Positions 50,831-53,300 of a stretch of DNA of 64,000 nucleotides are shown here, in pieces. The position numbers and the translations under genes were made by a program. A model generated the notes under the pieces. That model did no database searches and was not told the DNA's origin. It worked only from the letters and a program-made list of their open reading frames with translations. Source of the DNA: Pirellulaceae bacterium (GTDB lineage: Bacteria; Planctomycetota; Planctomycetia; Pirellulales; Pirellulaceae); assembly GCA_026004775.1 (NCBI GenBank), contig BPJU01000001.1, forward strand, positions 186,001 to 250,000, read 5' to 3'. Position 1 is the first letter of the stretch. Each line of letters starts with the position of its first letter.

Positions 50831-52417
50831 TCAGAGGGTGGGCAGGATGCGCGTGTCGGCGAATCGGCCGATGGCATCGCGCAGATCACCCGTGCCGCCG
50901 CAGTCGGGGCAGGCCGGTTCATCGTCGTGCGCCGCACGCGGCACTTGCGGCAGCCAGACGGCCTCATCGCAAAACAGCCGCTCGTGATCGGCTCCCTCCA
51001 GCACTTTGGCAAATACCGGTAGATCCAATTGCGGATCCATACGGATCTGGACAAGATTGCGGTGAGCTATCTGTTCCAGCCAACGGGTCCAGCGGGGGTG
51101 ATTGGTTCCGTAGTGTAGCAGAGCCAGAGCGATAAAGCCTTTGATGGCGTTGAGTCGTCCGGTACTGAAAATGGGGGTGCCGCGACTGGATATCTCCGGC
51201 CGGTAACCGGACAGATAGGCGTCATAGCGCATTTTGAGAATGCAGCGGTGGCAGGCGGGTGTTATGCCGGGGTAGGTGAAGGTCACCTCGGCCCCGCGAC
51301 CTTCGGCGTAGAGCTGTGCGCAGAGGCTGGGCAGACCAAACTGCAATGCCAGCCGATTGATGCGCGCTTGAGCAAAAAAATCATCGGTAAAACCGCACAA
51401 AAGGCTCTGACGCGGTTGTACGGTGAGGTTGGCCGGTATGTCCAGGCCGGAGATCCCCCAGTAATCAGCCAATGCGACCGACCAGCGCCGAAGCGGGCGG
51501 ACCAAGATACGGTAAAAGCATTCGTCGTCCAACTCGTCCAGACGCCGGGCAAGCGGCAGCACCTTGATCCAGGGGTTGATCTGTTTGAGTCGTCGAGCCA
51601 GTTGCCGCACTTTGCTCTTGCCCAAGTCACGCAGATAGACCTGTTGCGTGGCCAGGTTTGTTTCGGTGACCAGATCCGGATCGATCAGGACGAAATCACC
51701 GACACCGCTGCGTGCCAAATCTTCTACGAAGGAAGCGGCGCCGCCGACTCCTACGACAATCACACGGCTCAGTGCCATGCGCCGCAAATCCACCGCGTCT
51801 TGCAGTCGGGCGAAGATATCGCCCACGGCCCCGGCACGCGGCAGCGAGCCGCCAGCCAAGACGTTGCGGAAGCCTTCGCCGACCGGCTCCTCGTCGTCTT
51901 CCAACGAGCAGGATTCCGGCTCATCCGGCGGCACAACCTCCAAACGCATCGGCTGGCACGCCTCTACCCCCGCAACACCCCGGACCACCCGGTACGCGTA
52001 TATGCCGAACGGTGCCCCGTCGATGGGACTTTGCACGATCGGCAAATAGAACTGGTCCAGCCACGGGTTGTGGTCCAGGATGGTTTGGGCGTACTGGATG
52101 TCGTAGACCGACGGCCACGTACAGCCTCGCGGCTGCGAATGCACAAAACCGAGCATCCGCACACCGTTTGGGTTCCAGATGCGGGCCAACAACTGGTTGA
52201 GCCTTCCGTGATCGGGGGAGTACGACCCGCGAGAGGTTTCGGCGTGACGATCAAAATAATAGTGGCTTATCAATTCCGACGGCGGGCGACCGCCCAGAAT
52301 ACCCCCTTGTTCGGCGGGCAACCGGCCGATGGTCAGTCGGATGTGATCGTAGACGTCGGCTGTCATCCGCAGGACGGCTTCTGTTTGCGGAGCTGGCCGA
52401 CGTAAGGGACTTTCCAT
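50831..52417 (-). CDS. JAB-domain plus ThiF/E1-like adenylyltransferase fusion
   Basis: 528 residues. The ATG at 52417 has GGTGAG about eight bases upstream. An N-terminal JAB/MPN fold (~15-145) has EQGGILGG (E36) and HSQPRGCTWPSVYD, spaced exactly as H-x-H-x7-S-x2-D but with Gln (Q95) for the second metal His. Residues ~215-330 are an E1/ThiF Rossmann fold: VIVVGVGGAASFVEDLA, VLIDPDLVTETNLATQQVYL, in which the usual NxxRQ is NLATQ. C391/C394 and C503/C506 could bind zinc. E1-like proteins adenylate the C-terminus of a ubiquitin-like partner, and JAB domains cut it. No beta-grasp protein or E2 was identified beside it. The membrane protein gene upstream (52525-52995) is co-directional with a 107-base gap. 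Confidence 0.8.
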   Translation of the reverse strand: MESPLRRPAPQTEAVLRMTADVYDHIRLTIGRLPAEQGGILGGRPPSELISHYYFDRHAETSRGSYSPDHGRLNQLLARIWNPNGVRMLGFVHSQPRGCTWPSVYDIQYAQTILDHNPWLDQFYLPIVQSPIDGAPFGIYAYRVVRGVAGVEACQPMRLEVVPPDEPESCSLEDDEEPVGEGFRNVLAGGSLPRAGAVGDIFARLQDAVDLRRMALSRVIVVGVGGAASFVEDLARSGVGDFVLIDPDLVTETNLATQQVYLRDLGKSKVRQLARRLKQINPWIKVLPLARRLDELDDECFYRILVRPLRRWSVALADYWGISGLDIPANLTVQPRQSLLCGFTDDFFAQARINRLALQFGLPSLCAQLYAEGRGAEVTFTYPGITPACHRCILKMRYDAYLSGYRPEISSRGTPIFSTGRLNAIKGFIALALLHYGTNHPRWTRWLEQIAHRNLVQIRMDPQLDLPVFAKVLEGADHERLFCDEAVWLPQVPRAAHDDEPACPDCGGTGDLRDAIGRFADTRILPTL

Positions 52418-52524
52418 CGCAGATCTCACCAAGCCGAGGTAATCGTCAAGTTTGTGTACTTACCGGTCAGCGGCCGTCCGGCGGGAAGCGGTGCGTTGGA
52501 CACGATGGCTGGCGCTGGTACCGG

Positions 52525-52995
52525 TCAGAAATGCTGGCCGGTCTCGATGTAGTGCTCGGTACCTTCGGCCCACGCCACGGCAATTTTCAAAGCTTCATCG
52601 AACGTGCGTATCGGGCTATCCCAGCAAACATAACGACGCCCCGACGCGTAATCGGTCAAGCGATGCGTGATGTGCGCATCGTCTGCGCGACTGCCGTAAC
52701 CGGGTTGCCCGAGAATGAAAATCCGCCACTGCCCCGGTGCCACCATCTCCATGGCGAACGTAAACAGACTGCGACCGCTGCGGGTGCGATACGAGATGAC
52801 GCGGCGGTCCAGAAGGTTGGCGTCGCCGGATCCGCTGTCACTGTGGGTCTTCACGTAGCCTGGAGGCGGGTCCCCGAACAACTCGACACCCGTGGCCACC
52901 TGAGGAACCCTCCGCCTGCGCTTCCAGACAAGCCACCAAGCCACCGTCGCGCAGAGACTGCCGATCAGTACACCAATCGCGACCGCCTCCCACAC
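52525..52995 (-). CDS. Membrane-anchored protein of unknown fold beside the E1/JAB gene
   Basis: 156 residues. The GTG at 52995 has AGGAG eight bases upstream. A single helix (AVAIGVLIGSLCATVAWWLVW) followed by KRRRR anchors the N-terminus in the membrane with the rest in the cytoplasm by the positive-inside rule. The soluble part has GVELFGDPPPGYVKTHSDS, WRIFILGQPGYGSR, then HITHRLTDYASGRRYVCWDSP with H108, H111 and C124, and FDEALKIAVAWAEGTEHYIETG. The His-x-Gly-x-Cys-Trp arrangement could be read as an E2-like active site, but the YPxxPP and HPN landmarks of E2 are absent, so this is only a suggestion. It lies just upstream of the E1/JAB gene and may be co-transcribed. Confidence 0.55.
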   Translation of the reverse strand: MWEAVAIGVLIGSLCATVAWWLVWKRRRRVPQVATGVELFGDPPPGYVKTHSDSGSGDANLLDRRVISYRTRSGRSLFTFAMEMVAPGQWRIFILGQPGYGSRADDAHITHRLTDYASGRRYVCWDSPIRTFDEALKIAVAWAEGTEHYIETGQHF

Positions 52996-53114: not shown

Positions 53115-53300
53115 TTAGTGGAACGTTCCGACAGGCACGACGTCCGGTGCCGGAAAGACGCGCCGCAGCTCGTCCTGCGAAGGCGTCTCCGAACGCTCCG
53201 GTTTGTCAGCCGAAGGCTGGGCGTTGCGCCGAGGCAGTTCCACTACTTCGGGACGCCGCACCGCACGTTTCCTGGGAGCCAATTCGAGCACACCTACCAT
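53115..53300 (-). CDS. Small hydrophilic hypothetical protein
   Basis: 61 residues from the ATG at 53300, with GGGGGTG about seven bases upstream. The composition is charged and Pro-rich (VLELAPRKRAVRRPEVVEL, PSADKPERSETPSQDELRRV), apparently disordered, ending PVGTFH. It is on the same strand as, and about 120 bases upstream of, the membrane-protein gene, so it might head a three-gene unit with that gene and the E1/JAB gene. It has no beta-grasp pattern and no GG or GGE/GGQ end, so it is not a typical ubiquitin-like or Pup protein. It could be a chance ORF. Confidence 0.35.
   Translation of the reverse strand: MVGVLELAPRKRAVRRPEVVELPRRNAQPSADKPERSETPSQDELRRVFPAPDVVPVGTFH

Follow-up and report, generated by a model that had tools for sequence, protein, structure and literature searches.

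The ubiquitin-type cascades known so far use a folded beta-grasp domain as the tag or else, as in CBASS, a large enzyme's tail. In that system, it is the C-terminus of a protein other than a ubiquitin-like modifier (Ubl) that is activated (PMC12355090). Five types of E1/JAB operon were described by Iyer et al. in 2006 (PMC1779556), among them type 6e, in which JAB stands ahead of E1 and is accompanied by a polyUbl and by an RWD-like partner devoid of the cysteine (PMC1779556). Here, a 64,000-nucleotide stretch of DNA from a Pirellulaceae bacterium (the window) was analyzed, in which a JAB-E1 fusion gene lies beside genes for an E2-like protein and a micropeptide. We rate the chances as even that a sporadic E1/E2/JAMM cassette is represented by one copy in the window and acts on a micropeptide rather than on a beta-grasp modifier.

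The fusion gene occupies positions 50831..52417 on the minus strand and encodes 528 residues from the ATG at 52417; a TTG 15 bases upstream, at 52432, is also a possible start. A sequence-only reading of this DNA had proposed a JAB-E1 fusion with both catalytic halves modified. The fusion itself was upheld, as the E1 half matched ThiF (PF00899, E 2.5e-16) and a profile built from the JAB halves of the family matched JAMM1 (5lda, E 2.5e-8). Translation confirmed the motifs on which the proposal was built, with H93-S94-Q95-P96 followed by S103-x2-D106, then N254-LAT-Q258 and the zinc pairs C389xxC392 and C503xxC506. The JAB/JAMM domain (51974..52375, minus strand) is N-terminal to the E1/ThiF adenylation domain (50885..51820, minus strand), the order found in Bub and in type 6e. 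When the fusion was modeled with AF2 (pLDDT 77), Cap2 and BubCD (E 1e-14) were the top long Foldseek matches. The VIA list for this model spans the E1 half only and is therefore uninformative on the JAB fold.

The E1 half is a member of the ThiF fold. A profile of the family's E1 halves matched UBA5 and MoeB at E-values below 1e-23, structural comparison gave Z scores of 23.6 with MoeB and 21.3 with MccB, and MccB was also matched by phmmer (1.4e-7). K269 and D345, which occupy the places of MoeB Lys86 and Asp130 (for the role of these positions, see PMC12355090), are invariant across the family alignment. The place of MoeB Arg73 in the NxxRQ motif, equivalent to UBA1 Arg515 (PMC12355090), is taken by Thr257, and the motif is absent from the window protein. 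This substitution removes an arginine that contacts ATP, and adenylation in the window clade is therefore uncertain. Thr or Ser stands at this place in 10 of 10 clade relatives and Arg in 13 related E1s outside the clade, and a midpoint-rooted tree splits the two groups with local support of 0.82 and 1.0. The conservation of NLATQ was thus borne out, and the idea of an E1 with unusual chemistry is kept alive for the whole clade. The fused outgroup L056 has Arg; fusion and Thr are therefore not strictly coupled. No conserved cysteine other than the zinc ligands was found in the alignment of family E1s, and therefore no E1 thioester is evident. The family E1 is proposed to catalyze adenylation.

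Taken alone, the window JAB half scored 16.5 bits, below the Pfam cut-off of 25. The predicted assignment to the JAB/MPN fold nevertheless holds, because the family profile matches solved JAMM proteases in the PDB; the window domain can be aligned to the family over its entire length. Of the JAMM zinc-site set E...HxH...SxxD, E36, H93, S103 and D106 are present, and the second His is Gln95. Among the 24 relatives that carry a JAB domain, none has lost HxH. On this alignment, Q95 is private to the window copy and represents either a recent change or a sequencing error, the latter being possible since the searches turned up no genome from the genus itself. The relatives thereby separate what had been read as a single modified-catalysis feature: as judged from the aligned sequences, NLATQ is a trait of the clade and Q95 a local change in one copy, two oddities unlike in kind. 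With one His ligand missing from the zinc site, hydrolysis by the window copy is probably impaired. The altered metal or non-cleaving binding domain that had been suggested is possible for this copy only and does not extend to the family.

That H95Q taken alone is functionally meaningless, being a sequencing or assembly error or the first step in the decay of this copy, seems to us as plausible as its contrary. Gln is confined to one of 25 sequences, and its codon, CAG, is a single base from a His codon; against this, all frames are open, the peptide, the E2 cysteine and the E1 residues are intact, and the rest of the JAB domain conforms to the family. The window copy deviates at 2 of 20 conserved JAB columns, compared with 0 to 5 in other members. 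Q95 is therefore a single change and not part of an erosion of the domain, and general decay of the window JAB domain was rejected.

The sequence-only reading had seen no obvious E2 or Ubl partner. This did not stand for the E2, since an E2-like gene lies directly upstream of the fusion gene on the same strand, preceded by a candidate modifier peptide. No beta-grasp gene was recognized by Pfam or PADLOC models among the scanned window neighbors. The E2-like gene (52525..52995, minus strand; GTG start at 52995) encodes 156 residues, with a hydrophobic N-terminal segment, which suggests that the protein may reside at the membrane, followed by a mini-E2 domain of ~92 residues (52528-52809, minus strand) bearing a conserved His and a cysteine within YVCW. 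The AF2 model of this domain (pLDDT 94) had the CBASS protein CdnG-E2 as its best structural match (Z 7.1, rmsd 2.7, 90/94 residues). Further E2s scored Z 3.5-4.5, and unrelated SycE chains reached up to 4.3. Foldseek alone and sequence searches gave no significant match, and no model for the small domain was found in Pfam or NCBIfam, E2 models included. In an alignment of 21 sequences, the cysteine is present in 20 domains and the upstream His is invariant; the HPN tripeptide is not conserved. On a moderate match of the predicted fold, the product is best termed E2-like and not a proven E2.

Mini-E2 homologues adjoin JAB-E1 in the loci of relatives. When 397 genomes were searched with a mini-E2-only profile, every genome with a match had a JAB/E1 neighborhood, and the only copy lacking one was an orphan in genome G687 (L092:7573-7851, minus strand), which has no JAB, E1 or peptide nearby and is separated by 11 kb from a complete locus. 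Two loci (L098 and L102) carry a tandem pair of mini-E2 genes, and one of the L098 copies has Ser for Cys.

The candidate modifier or precursor is encoded by a micropeptide ORF of 61 residues (53115..53300, minus strand), which ends in ...PDVVPVGTFH; the ATG at 53300 is a chosen start, the frame being open to 53378. In all complete loci, a peptide with a C-terminal motif, G[IV]EE[LIV]xxGTLH or xVPxGTFH, precedes the gene for mini-E2 or that for JAB, and the motif forms a unit of about 11 residues that is often repeated in tandem. The peptide is upstream of mini-E2 in the window clade and mostly between mini-E2 and JAB in the clade with split loci. Four DVVP[E/P]GTFH units are found in G687, xIPPGTFH units in G548 and G963, GGDSVPPGTFH twice in L054, three GEEVLPPGGFR units in G761 and DLPxGTW[Y/H] in Bythopirellula. 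The split-locus peptides carry G[IV]EE[LIV]xxGTLH with 0-4 trailing residues. In a Spirochaetaceae fusion protein, PVLPTGTFR stands inside the chain, ahead of the E2 domain.

Repeat units within a peptide differ nearly only synonymously, for example with 9 of 11 codons changed and zero residue changes, which is strong evidence that the peptides are translated and selected as protein. ORFs ending in the motif were enriched in the expected zone (17/590 versus 18/8850), with zones that were defined after the motif had been seen. Two loci (L123 and L124) were found after the motif had been noticed, and both contain it. Elsewhere in the host genome, P.GTFH tails were rejected, the remaining matches lying in frames without sense. 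No description of such a peptide was found in full-text literature searches, whose coverage was thin for subscription papers and for the Bub pathway, and the novelty of the micropeptide cassette is provisional.

Peptide, mini-E2, JAB and E1 were found as a set in 20 loci, mostly in Planctomycetota; the peptide is free in 19 of these and internal to a longer chain in one. In many loci, mini-E2, JAB and E1 each have a gene of their own, and in the Spirochaetaceae fusion (L055:2576-4777, plus strand) they form one 734-residue chain; the E1 of this chain has lost its CxxC zinc cysteines, and GTFR motifs stand on both sides of the mini-E2 domain. Full-length relatives were found in Bythopirellula polymerisocia (two copies), in the Planctomycetota genomes G548, G687, G761 and G963, and in metagenome-assembled genomes labeled Acidobacteria, Candidatus Eisenbacteria, uncultured bacterium and Spirochaetaceae. 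The gene is rare, with a full-length match in 2 of 296 genomes of the order, the window counted. A 247-genome sample of the phylum of L054 yielded the known member alone, viral contigs held no relative, and phage and plasmid collections gave ThiF or JAB fragments only.

Some loci lie near conjugation-type genes (L123:2903-4273, plus strand; L124:3027-4931, plus strand; L038:1099-3832, minus strand), including a type IV secretion system coupling protein (PF02534, E 1.9e-55), weakly matched TrwB-like ATPases and Replic_Relax; the cassette may therefore be carried by mobile elements. In Bythopirellula, each of the two copies is followed by a ClpB-like AAA+ ATPase (PF07724, E 2.1e-33; L036:8401-9795 and L037:8630-10042, both plus strand) and by a small membrane protein. 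A further, unrelated JAB-E1 protein (L036:11615-13090, minus strand) lies 3 kb from the first of these copies and adjoins a 138-residue protein (L036:13102-13518, minus strand) that may be E2/RWD-like. The split loci L093-L103 contain a fourth gene of ~70 codons upstream of mini-E2 (for example L094:6761-6967, plus strand, and L101:7476-7700, minus strand), whose product carries EC..GEAVEIS..LLRF or TCDLT..EVW. No Pfam, NCBIfam or PADLOC model matched this gene, which is absent from the window clade; it could be the real Ubl of the split loci.

In its boldest form, to which we give somewhat less than even odds, the micropeptide reading is that of a ubiquitin-style E1/E2/JAMM pathway in which a free micropeptide without a beta-grasp fold serves as the modifier, and in one clade of which the E1 has replaced its conserved Arg. 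Comparison of sequences shows the parts, their co-occurrence, the predicted folds, the selection on the peptide, the private Q95 and the clade-wide Thr257; we infer the steps, target and biological role from the parts and their analogues. The three window genes would be transcribed together. On the model of Cap2 acting on its CD-NTase (PMC12355090) and of MccB acting on MccA, the E1-like domain would adenylate the C-terminus of the micropeptide, whose mature end would lie near PxGT[F/L]H. Once activated, the peptide would pass to the conserved cysteine of the mini-E2, the likely acceptor, and from there onto a target protein or another nucleophile. In the relatives, the JAMM domain would trim precursors with tandem units and variable tails, remove the tag, or both. 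The window peptide is a single unit already ending at His, and no trimming should be needed. A tie between the JAMM loss and a peptide that needs no trimming was considered but gained no support: in L098, L099, L102 and L124, a single unit ends exactly at His, yet HxH is retained.

The same parts might instead serve RiPP-like biosynthesis, which we regard as unlikely. The micropeptide would then be a precursor, and the pathway would yield a modified peptide instead of a protein tag; the E1-like domain would activate either the precursor's C-terminus or one of its side chains, in the manner of MccB on MccA, the mini-E2 would act as a carrier or recognition element, and JAMM would cut tandem precursors into units. 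The very short, repeated and strongly selected peptides and the nearness of the E1 half to MccB by structure and by phmmer fit such a pathway, as does the short precursor-like ORF that adjoins the ThiF gene in every complete locus, and ThiF-type RiPP enzymes are known (PMC12250964). However, E2-like and JAMM partners mark conjugation cassettes, that same review of ThiF-type RiPPs makes no mention of JAB, and in the loci that were read no gene for an exporter was noticed. Ordinary Bub- or 6e-like conjugation, with a folded beta-grasp modifier encoded elsewhere or unrecognized and the micropeptide as an accessory (a regulator, an inhibitor or a substrate tail of the E1), is improbable: JAB ahead of E1 is the 6e and Bub layout (PMC1779556), with BubCD among the top matches, and the split loci offer the ~70-residue candidate, but that gene is missing from the window clade, 6e partners are without the E2 cysteine that the mini-E2 has (PMC1779556), and the constant small gene is the peptide.

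If the micropeptide reading is true, no other tag system of this kind would be as stripped down as one in which an E1, an E2 and a JAMM protein work with only a peptide, 17 to about 60 residues long, and the cassette would form a bridge between Ubl conjugation and ThiF-type peptide chemistry. The cassette is small enough to be rebuilt in E. coli, and the clade-wide loss of the E1 Arg provides a natural comparison for adenylation chemistry.

Among known systems, microcin C7 resembles the cassette in pairing an E1-type enzyme, MccB, with a very short gene-encoded peptide, MccA. The peptides described here are repeated and unrelated to MccA in sequence, and MccB is not known to have an E2 or JAMM partner. 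CBASS shares the E1, E2 and JAMM logic (Cap2, Cap3 and CdnG-E2), and CdnG-E2 is the best match of the mini-E2. In contrast to CBASS type II, no CD-NTase was matched by PADLOC or Pfam among the scanned window neighbors, the candidate modifier is a free micropeptide, and the E2 is not fused to the E1 except in L055, where JAB stands between them. Types 6a-6d of Iyer et al. are likewise sporadic operons of E1, JAB and E2-like genes, but the E1 scored 17.5 bits with the ThiF model of the PRTRC system, to which type 6d is similar, far below its cut-off of 144.75. The nearest system in layout is type 6e and the nearest in fold are the Bub structures (BubA, BubB and BubCD), a comparison drawn, for Bub, from structures and titles only; both share with the window a JAB domain ahead of E1 and an E2/RWD-like partner gene. 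Type 6e, however, combines a Ubl with an RWD-like partner that lacks the cysteine, whereas the cassette described here has a Cys-bearing partner domain of ~92 residues and, in the place of the Ubl, a micropeptide.
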